From Meiothermus sp. Pnk-1 (GTDB lineage: Bacteria > Deinococcota > Deinococci > Deinococcales > Thermaceae): a DNA stretch of 64,000 nt. Both the position numbers and the translations under genes were made by a program. Below the pieces are notes generated by a model. It was not told where the DNA came from and ran no database searches. It saw only the letters and a list, made by a program, of their open reading frames with translations. This document shows, piece after piece, positions 54,892 through 62,057 of the stretch (positions within the stretch are counted from its first letter, which is position 1; each line of letters begins with the position of its first letter). Where the stretch lies: the NCBI RefSeq assembly GCF_003226535.1, contig NZ_QKOB01000001.1:310001-374000 (forward strand), written 5' to 3'.

Positions 54892-55482
54892 TCATACCGC
54901 CTCGAGCATCGGGGTGTCGGCCTCCAGCTCGAGGGAATGCCGGTCCATCAGGTAGATTTTGCGGTAGCCGGTATCCAAAAGGCCCTCCCGGCGCAAATCG
55001 GAGAGCAGCTTGGATACCGACTCGCGGGTGGAGGCGGTGGCGTCGGCTATCTCCTCGTGCGAGGCGGTGATGTAAGTACCCCGCTCGTCCCGGCCACAAG
55101 CGGCCGTCTCGGCGAGGTAGATCAGGTAGCGGCAGATCCGGCTGCGCAGTTCGCCCCACTGTAGGTGGGTTTCGTAAGCCTGCACCTGGGCCATCTGGGT
55201 GGCCAGGTTACCCGCCACCGCCCGCAAGTCCTCGGCGGACAGGCTGGCTACGTCAATACCCACGGCGCCCGCGTCGGTGAGGGCTTCGGCGGTGTAGCGG
55301 TAGTGGGTATTGGAGAGGGCTTCCTCGCCAAAGTAGTCCCCGGGCAGGACATGCCTGAGGGTGAGCTGGCGACCATCGGGCAGGATCTCTACGATCCGTA
55401 CCAGTCCCCGCTCTAGGTGGTAGAGGGCTTCGGCGCGGTCACCTGCCCGGTAGATGACCTCCTTGCGGCGTACCTTTTTCAT
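54892..55482 (-). CDS. ldrP: CRP/FNR-family transcriptional regulator, LdrP-like
   Basis: The 196-residue protein has a cyclic-nucleotide-binding-like beta barrel (VIYRAGDRAEALYHLERGLVRIVEILPDGRQLTLRHVLPGDYFGEEAL), a dimer helix, and a winged helix-turn-helix (ASHEEIADATASTRESVSKLLSDLRREGLL, near 139-168). The Arg-Ser pair of a cAMP phosphate cassette is not evident. T. thermophilus LdrP has the same size and the same place next to LitR/CarH, and activates light-inducible genes; I infer the same role. GGGAGGAGG precedes ATG 55482. It follows carH by 103 bp. Confidence 0.8.
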   Translation of the reverse strand: MKKVRRKEVIYRAGDRAEALYHLERGLVRIVEILPDGRQLTLRHVLPGDYFGEEALSNTHYRYTAEALTDAGAVGIDVASLSAEDLRAVAGNLATQMAQVQAYETHLQWGELRSRICRYLIYLAETAACGRDERGTYITASHEEIADATASTRESVSKLLSDLRREGLLDTGYRKIYLMDRHSLELEADTPMLEAV

Positions 55483-56489: not shown

Positions 56490-56551
56490 AGCTTAGCTTA
56501 CTGTCTAGGTTTTGTCAATAAAATGGGTCGCACCTTTACAAAAATTGAACA
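56490..56551. promoter_or_regulatory. Divergent carH / carotenoid promoter with 11-bp-spaced TNNACA repeats
   Basis: Minus strand: TTGACA (56513-56518), 17-nt spacer, TAAGCT (56490-56495), the carH promoter. Plus strand: TTGTCA (56512-56517) and TACAAA (56537-56542), a weaker promoter using the same -35 bases. On the minus strand TTGACA and TAGACA (56502-56507) are 11 bp apart. On the plus strand TTTACA (56535-56540) and TGAACA (56546-56551) are also 11 bp apart. CarH is known to bind 11-bp repeats across a -35 box. Confidence 0.65.
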
Positions 56552-56553
56552 AC

Positions 56554-57231
56554 ATGGTGAGATGGGTGGAGATGTCCCTCCCTGAGTCCCCGCCCCGGCC
56601 CCGCCTTAGCCTAGCGGTGGCCACCAACCTGCTCCCCCCTGTGGCCTGGGGATACGAGCTGTGGCGGGCGCGAGCGCTTACCTTGCTATCGGGGCGGAGG
56701 TTCCCCTTAGAGGAGGAATTCGCCCAGCTGGTTGCGGCCCTCGAGCCCGTACGGGGTGGCGTCTTCGCGGATCTGGGAACCTCCACCGGGCTCTACGCCC
56801 GGGCTTTGTTGTGCCGCGGAGCAGCTAGGGTATATGCCGTGGATCTCTCTTCCGCCATGTTGCGGGTGGCGGTGCGTAAAGCGCGGGGTCTGCCGGGGTT
56901 TGTACCCATGCGGGCGTGGGCAGAGAGCCTGCCGCTGCCTCCCCAAAGCTGCGACGGGGTAGCGGTGGGAGGGAGCTGGAATGAGTTTCCGCAGCCTGAG
57001 CGAGTCGCCGCCGAGATGGCGCGGGTACTGAAGCCGGGAGGGCGCTACTTTGTGATGTTCGCCCACGCTGGCCAAAGTCCCCTGCAGAGGCTCTTGGAGT
57101 TGAGTGGGCTGCGGTTTTCCAGCAGCGCAGAAGTGCAGGCCATCCTGGAAAAATTTGGGCTGAGGGGAAGAGCCTGGCGGGAAGGCGGGGTTGGCTTTGT
57201 GAGCGGAGCTAAGGTTGTGGAGGCGGTCTAG
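56554..57231 (+). CDS. Class I SAM-dependent methyltransferase of the carotenoid operon
   Basis: The 225-residue protein has the SAM-binding motif GGVFADLGTSTGLYARAL (near residue 65) and the acidic end of strand 2 in VYAVDLSSAMLR. CDGVAVGGSWNEFPQPERVAAEMARVLKPGGRYFVMF is motif IV/post-motif of UbiE/MenG-type enzymes. The substrate is not known; a quinone, lipid or carotenoid is possible. Starts are uncertain: ATG 56554, ATG 56572 or an upstream TTG 56512 inside the promoter. It is the first gene of the plus-strand run and lies 28 bp before crtB. Confidence 0.78.
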   Translation: MVRWVEMSLPESPPRPRLSLAVATNLLPPVAWGYELWRARALTLLSGRRFPLEEEFAQLVAALEPVRGGVFADLGTSTGLYARALLCRGAARVYAVDLSSAMLRVAVRKARGLPGFVPMRAWAESLPLPPQSCDGVAVGGSWNEFPQPERVAAEMARVLKPGGRYFVMFAHAGQSPLQRLLELSGLRFSSSAEVQAILEKFGLRGRAWREGGVGFVSGAKVVEAV

Positions 57232-57259: not shown

Positions 57260-58102
57260 ATGGAACCGGATTGGAAGGCTATAGCGGCGACTATCCGTCA
57301 CCACTCCGCCACTTTCTACTACGGTAGCCTCCTGTTCCGGGGAGCCGCCCGCAAGGGTGTTTGGGCGGTCTACGCCGCCTGCCGCACCGGGGACGACGCG
57401 GTGGATGAATCCTCTGATCCCGAGGGCGAGCTCGAGCGTTGGTGGGAGGGGATCGAACGGGCCTACCGGGCGCAGCCCCAAGAGGAGTGGGAGAAGGGGT
57501 TGGCCTGGGCCTTCGAGCGCTGGCCCATTCCCCAAGCCGCCTTCGCCGATATGCACCGAGGGTTTTTGGACGACCTCCGGCCTATGCGACCGCAAAACCT
57601 GGAGGAGCTTTTGCTCTACTGCTACCGGGTGGCGGGGACAGTGGGCCGCATGATCGCCCCCATCGCCGGGGTGTGGCCGGGAGCAGGAGGGGCGGAGGAG
57701 GCCGCCGTCAAGCTGGGCCAAGCGATGCAGCTGACCAACTGCTTGCGCGACGTGGGAGAAGACTTAGCCATAGGGCGGGTATACCTCCCTGCCGATCTCA
57801 TGGACCGTCATGGGGTGAGCCTGGAAGACCTCTACAGCGGCCGTATTCGCCAACCCTACATCGGCTTGATGCAGGAGTTGGCCGCGGCGGCGCGAAGGCT
57901 GTACCGCGAGGGGTTGAAGGGGCTTCCCTATCTGCGCCAGGGCCGGGCCGCCATCGCCCTGGCCGCCTTGCAATACGAGGGCATTCTGGACAAGCTCGAG
58001 CGTTCAGGATGGAACAACCTCTCGGGCCGGGCCTCGCTGCGCGCCTATGAGCGGCTGTTGCTGGTCCCGCGGGCGCTTTGGATGCGGACCGGCTCGTCGT
58101 AG
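57260..58102 (+). CDS. crtB: Phytoene synthase
   Basis: The 280-residue enzyme joins two geranylgeranyl diphosphates to phytoene, the first committed step of the pathway. Both Asp-rich motifs are visible, DDAVD (45-49) and DVGED (164-168), with the following GRVYLP. ATG 57260 follows AAGGAG at 9 nt. T. thermophilus crtB likewise lies next to litR and is its light-controlled target. Length and motifs are complete. Confidence 0.95.
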   Translation: MEPDWKAIAATIRHHSATFYYGSLLFRGAARKGVWAVYAACRTGDDAVDESSDPEGELERWWEGIERAYRAQPQEEWEKGLAWAFERWPIPQAAFADMHRGFLDDLRPMRPQNLEELLLYCYRVAGTVGRMIAPIAGVWPGAGGAEEAAVKLGQAMQLTNCLRDVGEDLAIGRVYLPADLMDRHGVSLEDLYSGRIRQPYIGLMQELAAAARRLYREGLKGLPYLRQGRAAIALAALQYEGILDKLERSGWNNLSGRASLRAYERLLLVPRALWMRTGSS

Positions 58103-58141
58103 CGGCGTTTTTACCCTACGCTGGTGGGGGAGGCGGCGAGA

Positions 58142-59674
58142 TTGTTTGACCTCGTGGTTATCGGAGCCGGACACAACGCCCTGGTCGCCGCTGCCTACGT
58201 GGCCCGAGCGGGGTATAAGGTAGGGGTGTTCGAACGGCGAGCGCTGGCGGGAGGAGCGGTCTCGACCGTGGAGATGGTGCCCGGTTACCGCTTCGACTTG
58301 GGCGGCAGCGCCCACATCCTCATCCGCCTGACCCCCATCGTGGAGGAGCTCGAGCTGCCTCGCTACGGGCTGGAGTACCTCGAGCTGGACCCCCTTTTTC
58401 ACGCCTCGGATGGCGAGGGGAGCTGGTTTGTCTGGCGCGACGCGGAGCGCACCGCCCACGAGCTCGAGGGGCGATTTCCCGGGCAGGGCGAGGCCTACCG
58501 GCGCTTCATTGGCGACTGGCTGCCCTTCAGCACGGCGGTCAAGGAGGCTTTCTTGAGCGTGCCGAGCCCCCTCGAGCTAGGGCGCAAGATGGTGTGGGGT
58601 TCCGGGCTCGGCAAAGACTGGCAGCGTCGCCTGCCGCGGATCCTAAGGCCCTACGGCGAGGTCGCCGCCGAGTATTTCCGCGAGGAGCGGGTCCGCGCCC
58701 CCCTGGTCTGGATGGCGGCCCAGTCCGGCCCGCCCCCTAGCGACCCCCTTTCGGCCCCCTTTCTGCTATGGCACCCGCTTTACCACGTGGGCGGGGTGGC
58801 CCGCCCGCGGGGGGGCTCGGGCGAACTCGCCCAAGCCCTGGTGCGGCTGATCGAGGCCCACGGCGGCGAGGTGCACCTCTCCACCCCGGTGGAACAGATC
58901 CTGATCGAAAACGGCAAAGCCGTCGGCATTCAAGCGGGCGGCGAGCGCATCCTGGGCGGAGCGGTGCTGGCCGGAAGCCACGTGCTCAAAACCGCGCAGA
59001 TGCTCCCTGCGGCCTACGTCCCGGAGGAGGCGCGAAGGGTGCGGGTTGGCAACGGATTCGGTGCGATCTTGCGGCTAGCCCTCAAGGAAAAGCTGCGCTA
59101 CCGGACCCATGCGGGGGACGAGGCCCGGATCGGGCTGGGGCTTCTGATCGGGGGTGAGCGCGAGCTTTACCGCGCGTACGGGGAGTACCTGGCGGGCGAA
59201 CCCACCTCCAACCCCCCCCTCGTCGCCATGAGCTTCAGCGCGGTGGACCCCAGCCTGGCCCCGCCCGGTGGGGAGGTGCTATGGCTGTGGGCGCAGTACT
59301 ACCCCTACCGGCTGGCCCGGGGGACCTGGGAGGAACGCGCGCAGGAGGTGCGAGAGGCGATCCTTCGCAGCTTCGAGCGCTGGGATCCGGACATCCGCAG
59401 CAAGATCGTGGGCGAACTCCTGCAGACTCCGGCCTGGCTCGAGTCCGAGTTTGCCATGCCGAGCGGGAACGTGATGCACCTGGAGATGAGCCTCGACCAG
59501 ATGTTCATGCTGCGCCCTTGGCTGGGGGCGGCCAACTACAGATGGCCCACGCTCAAAAGCCTCTACCTGTGCGGGGCCAGCACCCACCCCGGCGGGGGGA
59601 TCATGGGGGCTAGCGGGCGGAACGCGGCGCGGATTATCCTCAGGGATTTGAGCCGCCGCAGGGTAGGGGGGTGA
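58142..59674 (+). CDS. CrtO-type carotenoid FAD oxidoreductase (ketolase or desaturase)
   Basis: The roughly 510-residue flavoprotein has the N-terminal motif [20 protein letters not shown] and the C-terminal [23 protein letters not shown]. Both are of the CrtO type (COG1233), as in Deinococcus beta-carotene ketolase, rather than classical CrtI. CrtO enzymes add keto groups; Meiothermus pigments are reported to carry a 2-keto group, so a ketolase role is plausible. A desaturase role is not excluded. TTG 58142 is chosen because GGGAGG lies 8 nt upstream; GTG 58124 would add six residues without a ribosome site. Confidence 0.8.
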
Positions 59675-59692
59675 GGCGGCTATGGAAGACCG

Positions 59693-60856
59693 ATGAACGA
59701 TAGCTATGACTACATCATCGCCGGGGCGGGGGCTGCCGGGCTCAGCCTGGCCTACCACTTGGTCCAGGCCGGGCTGCGGGACAAGCGCGTGCTGCTCATC
59801 GACCGCGAGCGCAAGCGCCGCAACGACCGCACCTGGTGCTTTTGGGAAGTAGGGGAGGGGCCTTTCGAAGGGCTGGTTTTCCGCCGCTGGTCGAGGGTCT
59901 GGTTCCACGGCGAGGGGATCTCCGCGCGCTTGAACCTTTCGCCCTACCGCTACAAGATGATCCGCGGCATCGATTTCTATGCCTTCATGGACCGCTGGCT
60001 CGAGACCCAGCCGCAGATTACCCGGCTTTACGGTGAGGTAGACCGGGTGGAGGAGGGGCGGGTTTGGGTAGAGGGGCGGCCGTACGAGGCCAGGTGGATC
60101 TTCGACAGTATCCACCGCTCCATCCCTCGGCTACCTGGCTACCATTACCTGCTGCAGCACTTCAAGGGATGGGTGGTGTGCGCTGCCTCCCCGGCGTTTG
60201 ATCCCACCGCGGCCACCCTGATGGACTTTCGCCTCGAGCAGCGAGGAGCGGTGCGCTTTGCCTACGTGCTGCCCTACGACGAGCGGACGGCCTTGGTCGA
60301 GTACACCCTGTTCTCGCCCACACTTCTCCAGCCTGAAGAGTACGACCTGGGGCTCAAGGACTACCTCGAGCGCCTGCTACATATCCGGGAATACACAGTT
60401 CAGCACGAGGAATTTGGCATCATCCCAATGACCGATGTACCGGTGGTCTCTGCCGGTGACTCCCGCATCATCCGCATCGGCATAGCAGGTGGGCGGGCCA
60501 AGGCCTCTACCGGGTATACCTTTCAGCGCATTCAGCGCCACTCGCGGCAGATCGCCGCGAGCCTGGTCCGCTACGGACAGCCCCTGGCAGGCAAGCCCGG
60601 CTTTGACCGCCATCGCTGGATGGATAGCCTCTTCCTCAATGCCCTGAGCCGGGGGCGGGTAGAGGGCAAGCGCTTTTTTAGCCGCCTGTTCCAAAGGTGC
60701 CCGGCGGCCCAGGTGCTGCGTTTCCTCGATGAGGAGACCTCGCTAATGGACGACCTCAAGCTCATGTCGGCCGTTGACATCCCGGCTTTTCTCGCCTCGG
60801 GCTGGGATGTGCTGACCTCGAGGCTCAGGGCCCGGCGGCGCCCCGAGGATTTGTGA
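59693..60856 (+). CDS. crtY: Lycopene cyclase, CrtY type
   Basis: The 387-residue flavoprotein has the N-terminal NAD(P)/FAD motif YIIAGAGAAGLSLAYHL. The CrtY signatures are RNDRTWCFW (near residue 44), MDFRLEQ (near 182), FAYVLPYDERTALVEYT, and GIAGGRAKASTGYTFQRIQ (near 265). CrtY makes beta-ionone rings at lycopene ends. A monocyclic product such as gamma-carotene or torulene is inferred because the other end can be taken by CruF downstream. It starts 18 bp after the CrtO-type gene. The C-terminal FLDEETSLMDDLKLM is also conserved. Confidence 0.9.
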   Translation: MNDSYDYIIAGAGAAGLSLAYHLVQAGLRDKRVLLIDRERKRRNDRTWCFWEVGEGPFEGLVFRRWSRVWFHGEGISARLNLSPYRYKMIRGIDFYAFMDRWLETQPQITRLYGEVDRVEEGRVWVEGRPYEARWIFDSIHRSIPRLPGYHYLLQHFKGWVVCAASPAFDPTAATLMDFRLEQRGAVRFAYVLPYDERTALVEYTLFSPTLLQPEEYDLGLKDYLERLLHIREYTVQHEEFGIIPMTDVPVVSAGDSRIIRIGIAGGRAKASTGYTFQRIQRHSRQIAASLVRYGQPLAGKPGFDRHRWMDSLFLNALSRGRVEGKRFFSRLFQRCPAAQVLRFLDEETSLMDDLKLMSAVDIPAFLASGWDVLTSRLRARRRPEDL

Positions 60857-60902
60857 GGCGAGCTATTTCTAAGGCTTGCCCGCGGCGTAGCCTGAAGTAC
60901 GC

Positions 60903-62057
60903 ATGAGCTGGCTTCTACTAGCCCTGCTGGTGGCTTTGCCCCCCTGGTTTTTGCGGTGCTGGGCCGGTGTAGGTCTGGCGGCGCCGGGGCCTTCCAGGCT
61001 GCGCTGGTTGGGGGGGGGTGTTTGGCTAGGGCTGGCGCTGGTGGGGGCGGTGCTGTGGGTGGGCGGCTCGGAGCGGGTGCTGGCCGGTTCCCTGGCCCTC
61101 TTCGGATCGCTGTTGGCCTTGCTGGCGTTTTGGGGCGGAGACCTGCTGTGGACGGCTCGGGTCCAGATCGGTTGGACGATTGCGCTGGCCCTGCTGGTCG
61201 GGGGTGGGGCCACATCCCTCCTGGCCTTGCCCCCTTCAGCCTTGGCGCTGGCCGGTCTGCTAGGGGCATTCCTGGCCCAGGCGGTCTGGTTGATGGAGAA
61301 CCGGGAAGCTCGAGCCCGCCTTTCCCGGTTGTTGCGGCGAACCCGGTTGTGGATGGTGCCGTTGGCCCTTTCCGCCTTGGTGCGCGTCCCGGTTCCGCTC
61401 TGGCCCGAAGGCTTCGCTCTGATGAGCCTCCTCCAGATGAGCCTGGTCACCTTGGCCGCCGTCCTGTGGGCCTGGGAAAAGGTGGGGCCACGCATCTTGC
61501 TGATGGGCGGAGCGGCCTTTGTTCTGGGGCTGGGGGTAGAACTGCTGGGGAGCCGCAGCGGCTTTCCCTTTGGCCTCTACAGCTACGCCTCTGCGCCGCC
61601 CCCCACCCTGCTGGGCGTCCCCCTCATCGTCCTGCTGGGGTGGTTCGGCATGGTGCTGGCGGCGCACGTGCTGGCCGGGGGGCGCCCCTGGCTCACGGGC
61701 TGGCTGGTCGTGGCCTGGGACCTGGGCCTCGAGGCCCTGATGCCCTCCCAGGGGTACTGGGTCTGGCAGGATCCCCATCCGCTGTGGTATGGGGCGCCGC
61801 TGCAGAACTACCTCTCCTGGTTCGCTATGGGGGCCTTTTTGTCCTGGATCTACCGGAACCTCGCGCCGGAGCTGCCGCACGAATCGGGGTTGGCCTGGGC
61901 TTACCGCCTCGAAGGGCTGTTTCTGCCTATGGGCTTGGCGCTGTTTGGGCTTTGGCCCGCCGCTTTGGTGTGTGGGGTGGCCATGAACGCGCTGGCCTGG
62001 CGGGGGGTGCGCCGGGCTACCTGGTTCTCGCGTGATGGTCGGGAGGTTGTCCCTTGA
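60903..62057 (+). CDS. cruF: Carotenoid 1',2'-hydratase CruF with N-terminal extension
   Basis: The C-terminal half has the CruF/DUF422 marks: GVELLGSRSGFPFGLYSY (near 211), GVPLIVLLGWFGM (near 238), and WDLGLEALMPSQGYWVWQDPHPLWYGAPLQNYLSWF (near 275-310). CruF hydrates the psi end of a carotene to a 1'-hydroxyl, which can then be glycosylated. The 384-residue length exceeds the usual 280-300. The extra 130 or so residues form several further membrane helices. ATG 60903 has no clear ribosome site and lies 46 bp after crtY. Its stop overlaps the acyltransferase start (TTGA). Confidence 0.88.
   Translation: MSWLLLALLVALPPWFLRCWAGVGLAAPGPSRLRWLGGGVWLGLALVGAVLWVGGSERVLAGSLALFGSLLALLAFWGGDLLWTARVQIGWTIALALLVGGGATSLLALPPSALALAGLLGAFLAQAVWLMENREARARLSRLLRRTRLWMVPLALSALVRVPVPLWPEGFALMSLLQMSLVTLAAVLWAWEKVGPRILLMGGAAFVLGLGVELLGSRSGFPFGLYSYASAPPPTLLGVPLIVLLGWFGMVLAAHVLAGGRPWLTGWLVVAWDLGLEALMPSQGYWVWQDPHPLWYGAPLQNYLSWFAMGAFLSWIYRNLAPELPHESGLAWAYRLEGLFLPMGLALFGLWPAALVCGVAMNALAWRGVRRATWFSRDGREVVP

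Follow-up and report, generated by a model that had tools for sequence, protein, structure and literature searches.

Genes and boxes around carH

The window analysed here is a 64 kb stretch of DNA that derives from a Thermaceae genome. It contains a carotenoid (crt) operon on the plus strand and, divergent from it, genes for a B12-dependent light-sensing repressor, CarH, and the CRP/FNR-family regulator LdrP (Table 1). CarH is a structurally well-understood green-light switch that has been used in optogenetics. The protein encoded in the window carries the Pfam domain MerR_1 followed by B12-binding_2 and B12-binding, all above cut-off, is 52% identical to CarH of Thermus thermophilus HB8, and matches solved CarH chains at an E value of about 1e-76. 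Its signature motifs, W137-x9-E147-H148 (Wx9EH) and E181-x-H183 (ExH), are invariant with those of T. thermophilus CarH. The NCBIfam CarH equivalog is by far its best family at 384.5 bits, narrowly below the family's cut-off of 400 bits, which is a score threshold and represents no biochemical feature. A scan of viral contigs found no relatives of CarH. On the minus side, carH, ldrP and an NDUFA9-like gene follow one another in the same order as on T. thermophilus pTT27.

At all Thermaceae loci examined except one, carH and the carotenoid operon are divergent. The methyltransferase gene that separates carH from crtB is present in this genus, Meiothermus and Calidithermus; none of the five Thermus loci checked has it, and there crtB and carH are direct divergent neighbours. 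We place its start at the ATG at 56572, because this codon aligns with the Meiothermus starts and because the upstream ATG at 56554 is followed by an in-frame TAG in the sister genome (G023). A TTG at 56512 was likewise rejected as the start.

Table 1. Coordinates of the genes, promoter element and 11-bp units discussed in the text.
Feature	Position	Strand	Basis or score
ldrP, CRP/FNR-family regulator, next gene after carH	54892..55482	-	NCBIfam LdrP equivalog, 339.6 bits (cut-off 300)
carH, B12-dependent light-sensing repressor, 293 aa	55586..56467	-	Pfam, NCBIfam, identity
Candidate -10 box of carH promoter, TAAGCT, 17 bp from TTGACA	56490..56495	-	Position conserved
Putative CarH box AACCTAGACAG, carH strand, in promoter spacer	56501..56511	-	12.1 bits, Thermus matrix
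Putative CarH box TTTATTGACAA, holding carH -35 TTGACA (56518-56513)	56512..56522	-	4.8 bits, Thermus matrix
Degenerate third unit, GACCCA replacing TNNACA, at dyad centre	56523..56533	-	-8.0 bits, Thermus matrix
Putative CarH box CACCTTTACAA, crt strand	56531..56541	+	12.8 bits; -1.5 read on other strand
Putative CarH box AAATTGAACAA, crt strand	56542..56552	+	13.0 bits; 10.4 read on other strand
Methyltransferase gene, first of crt operon	56572..57231	+	Pfam Methyltransf_11; start from comparison
crtB, phytoene synthase	57260..58102	+	Pfam SQS_PSY; divergent from carH across family
Further carotenoid genes: CrtO/CrtI-type oxidoreductase, lycopene cyclase, CruF-like protein	58124..62057	+	
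Four-box array before FAS1, this genome	G000:C1:277531-277568 (L136 1490-1527)	sense	
Four-box array before FAS1, sister genome	G023:C1:1373920-1373957 (L137)	sense	
Four-box array before FAS1, Meiothermus	G030:C1:2223095-2223132	sense	

The intergenic region between the start codons of carH (56467) and the methyltransferase gene spans 104 bp at 45% GC. The first-pass annotation had described TNNACA twice on each strand at exactly 11-bp spacing and pointing outward, and the coordinates bear this out. The minus strand carries TTGACA and TAGACA (56507-56502), the plus strand TTTACA (56535-56540) and TGAACA (56546-56551), and all starts share a single 11-bp register (56502, 56513, 56524, 56535, 56546). 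Against the three or four same-direction boxes or pseudo-boxes looked for in a CarH operator, there are two complete boxes in each direction; a third carH-strand unit, which keeps two of the four key bases, overlaps four bases that differ from the sister species. Two properties expected of a CarH operator were found here: at least two complete tandem 11-bp TnnACA repeats (two on each strand), and a box that overlaps a promoter element (on the carH side, where TTGACA lies inside the box).

Chance expectation and promoters

The repeats between carH and the methyltransferase gene are real, and it is very unlikely that they arose by chance. The 3.51 Mb genome has 16 occurrences of the pattern TNNACA-N5-TNNACA, the two intergenic pairs among them. 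Among 40,000 dinucleotide shuffles of the 104-bp region, the plus-strand pair appeared 39 times and the minus-strand pair 87 times, while both together never appeared. A search of 111 genomes from the order found the complete two-sided pattern in just two, this genome and that of the sister species; each has a single copy, located at carH. We also built a position matrix from 53 distinct Thermus boxes, with no sequences from the genus studied here, and used it to score individual loci and, throughout the window, all pairs of units spaced 11 bp apart. The crt-strand pair (56531-56552) ranked first at 25.8 bits, a score reached by one of 40,000 shuffles, and the carH-strand pair (56502-56518) second at 16.9 bits; the next-best pair scored 12.0 bits.

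The other exact two-box matches in the genome were set aside as CarH sites: some contain a DnaA-box-like sequence, TTATCCACA, and the seven whose surroundings were inspected all lie inside stop-free frames of at least 80 codons and score at most about 14 bits. Neither species of the genus has an exact three-box array. Two similar sequences of the form TTTACA-N5-TTAACA (G000:C4:240989 and C4:248404), both within stop-free frames, are probably unrelated to CarH; an identical 17-bp copy of one of them is present in the sister genome (G023:C1:140621).

On the carH side, the minus-strand TTGACA, with a -10 box of the TAnnnT type 17 bp further on, makes a convincing candidate promoter: the -10 position reads TAAGCT here, TAGACT in the sister species and TATCCT in Meiothermus. 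A sigma-70 consensus scan returned no promoter-like sites on either strand. The first reading of the sequence had proposed overlapping divergent -35 boxes, and the minus-strand TTGACA and plus-strand TTGTCA (56512-56517) do share five bases; the scan did not confirm TTGTCA as a -35 box in use, and the case for it as the crt-side -35 is weak. A possible crt promoter, as originally suggested, would pair TTGTCA with TTTACA at 56535-56540. We lean weakly toward a second placement, in which the same TTTACA, a match to the -35 box at five of six bases, would be paired with TGAGAT (56558-56563); this arrangement mirrors the spacing of the carH promoter, with a box pair over the -35 and spacer. Under either placement, the crt-strand pair lies on the crt core promoter.

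Comparative context and a candidate CarH operator

In T. thermophilus, CarH binds three tandem boxes of the form nAnnTnnACAn, and the -35 element lies within one of them (PMC8156234; PMC9304148). Boxes of this form lie on the carH strand in the carH-crtB regions of Thermus, and the TTGACA box is invariant in the Thermus operators used. The carH-strand pair in the window corresponds in position to the T. thermophilus operator and has retained TTGACA and its spacer partner; the third box is degenerate. The two systems share the gene-pair context, the 11-bp box, the TTGACA -35 within a box and the partner box in the spacer (PMC8156234; PMC9304148). They differ in that the T. thermophilus operator on pTT27 consists of three boxes facing one direction on the carH strand, with no crt-strand pair, and in that crtB itself, without a methyltransferase gene, is divergent from carH.

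Similarities extend to more distant systems. In the crtI-carH and crtE-crtD operators of Sorangium cellulosum, one CarH-bound region spans two overlapping divergent promoters, so the idea of one site shared by divergent promoters is not new; the boxes there, however, are described as tandem direct repeats and not as opposed pairs (PMC9304148). The P_crt operators of Myxococcus and Cystobacter resemble the intergenic site in covering about 55 bp with five 11-bp units, complete and degenerate boxes mixed, but they serve a single promoter and their repeats face one direction (PMC9304148). CarH operators with few complete boxes are also known (PMC9304148). In the literature searched, mapped CarH operators were one-directional and none with opposed pairs was described. 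The unusual feature of the intergenic site is the inverted orientation of its second pair.

The genus is sampled by two genomes, this one and that of the sister species. They agree at every base of 30 bp covering the carH-strand pair and of 20 bp covering the crt-strand pair; the four bases between these conserved blocks all differ, and the flanks vary. Most Meiothermus genomes resemble the intergenic site in having a pair over the carH promoter and a second pair 32-34 bp away; they differ from it in the direction of the second pair, which faces carH in most and scores near-symmetrically in three (L012, L016 and L021). This genus shares a crt-facing second pair with one separate lineage, L019. 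Thermus lacks a crt-strand pair that scores comparably, and Calidithermus lacks a second pair that does so. Mapped onto a CarH tree, the crt-facing state requires two changes, with L019 pairing with the near-symmetric L021. The L019/L084 locus (Thermaceae MAG015) has a carH without an adjoining methyltransferase-crtB operon; its second pair points away from carH, and a frame resembling an ABC-transporter ATPase is found upstream, oriented as carH is. Since no crt operon adjoins carH there, the direction of its second pair cannot serve one.

Because the Meiothermus second pair lies equally far from the first but usually faces carH, we read the mirror layout as a genus-specific orientation switch of a conserved putative second CarH site. 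In boxes such as TGTACA, which read identically on either strand, one substitution can be enough to favour one direction or the other, and the genome series suggests that the switch may have passed through such near-palindromic boxes. We tentatively extend this to a broader proposal, which we regard as somewhat doubtful: that CarH boxes are usable in either orientation, that the direction of the second site, about 33 bp away, switched via TGTACA-like intermediates, and that the result is a dyad operator in which each pair is sense to its own operon and the DNA-binding domains lie antiparallel, possibly in a single bridging tetramer.

Predicted binding of CarH to the intergenic boxes is well supported by comparison, and the intergenic stretch is very probably where CarH sits in the dark, silencing both sides. 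We consider it likely that the two outward-facing 11-bp box pairs form a CarH operator controlling both carH-ldrP and the methyltransferase-crtB carotenoid operon. The operator reading put forward in the first-pass annotation thus holds in its main part, given the adjoining carH, the positional counterpart in Thermus and the Thermus-like score of the crt-strand pair in the direction that annotation gave it, while its use of TTGTCA as the crt -35 box is weak. In this model, whose binding, repression, light response and crt promoter position we infer, CarH with adenosylcobalamin would form tetramers in the dark. These would occupy both pairs: the carH-strand pair, which spans the -35 and spacer of the carH promoter, and the crt-strand pair at the proposed core promoter of the crt operon. 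RNA polymerase would thereby be kept off both sides. Occupancy could take the form of a single tetramer bridging both pairs or of two tetramers side by side. Light would break the cobalt-carbon bond, the tetramer would fall apart and both operons would be expressed; LdrP, encoded together with CarH, probably helps on the crt side.

Other explanations of the repeats appear less probable. Only the carH-strand pair might be a CarH site, as in Thermus, with the TNNACA pair on the crt strand forming part of the crt promoter and 5' end and resembling CarH boxes by chance; one tetramer on the carH side would then block both promoters sterically. Thermus does control a divergent crtB without a crt-strand pair. 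The consensus scan located no crt promoter, which leaves room for the crt-strand pair to have been conserved as promoter or 5' end; TTTACA is close to a -35 box, and identity with a single sister species does not tell promoter and operator apart. We nevertheless judge this explanation unlikely: no other pair in the window scores as high, 1 in 40,000 shuffles reaches that score, and a second pair at this distance recurs in most Meiothermus genomes. It is considerably less probable still that the second pair is the end of a continuous five-unit carH-strand array, as in Meiothermus, and that its crt-facing appearance is a by-product of near-palindromic boxes. The five units do share one register, Meiothermus second pairs are mostly carH-facing, and the last unit (56542..56552) scores 10.4 bits on the carH strand too. 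Against this, the crt-strand pair as a whole scores 8.9 bits when read on the carH strand versus 25.8 on its own, the unit at 56535 loses on the carH strand a C present in every Thermus box used, and the preference for the crt strand persists under a stricter matrix.

The least probable explanation, which we give very little credence, treats the region mainly as an activator site for LdrP (CRP/FNR), with the repeats incidental. The adjoining ldrP gene would fit, as would TGTCTAGGTTTTGTCA at 56502-56517, which has the 16-bp frame of the LdrP/TTHB099 motif, a palindrome of the form TGT(A/g)-N8-(T/c)ACA (PMC7662524). This sequence, although the best candidate, departs from the conserved motif at positions 4, 13 and 14, with C at position 4, G at 13 and TCA for ACA, and an LdrP site leaves both the 11-bp direct repeats and the crt-strand pair unexplained. 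The TTHB099 study found no site near the gene's own operon (PMC7662524). We rejected LdrP as the reader of the intergenic repeats. A natural operator of opposed pairs, set beside relatives whose second pair is same-facing, near-symmetric or opposed, offers a direct test of whether a CarH tetramer requires one box direction.

A second array before fasciclin genes

A search for four tandem TNNAC boxes at 11-bp steps gave exactly one match per genome in three genomes: this one, its sister and one Meiothermus. Each match lies upstream of a fasciclin (FAS1) gene, on the sense strand. Among the FAS1 loci of the family, all four boxes are present in 18 of 21 and a partial array in one more; in the 18 complete arrays, each unit keeps its T, A and C, and variation is confined to the n positions. 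In 19 FAS1 loci, the sense strand is the one favoured by the Thermus CarH matrix. In this genus, the FAS1 gene comes after a photolyase gene. We found no link between CarH and fasciclins in the open-licence literature; an algal FAS1 domain protein has been reported to bind carotenoids (PMC10147662). We predict that CarH binds the FAS1 array, which would place FAS1 under light and B12 control by CarH and make it a light-controlled protein outside pigment synthesis.
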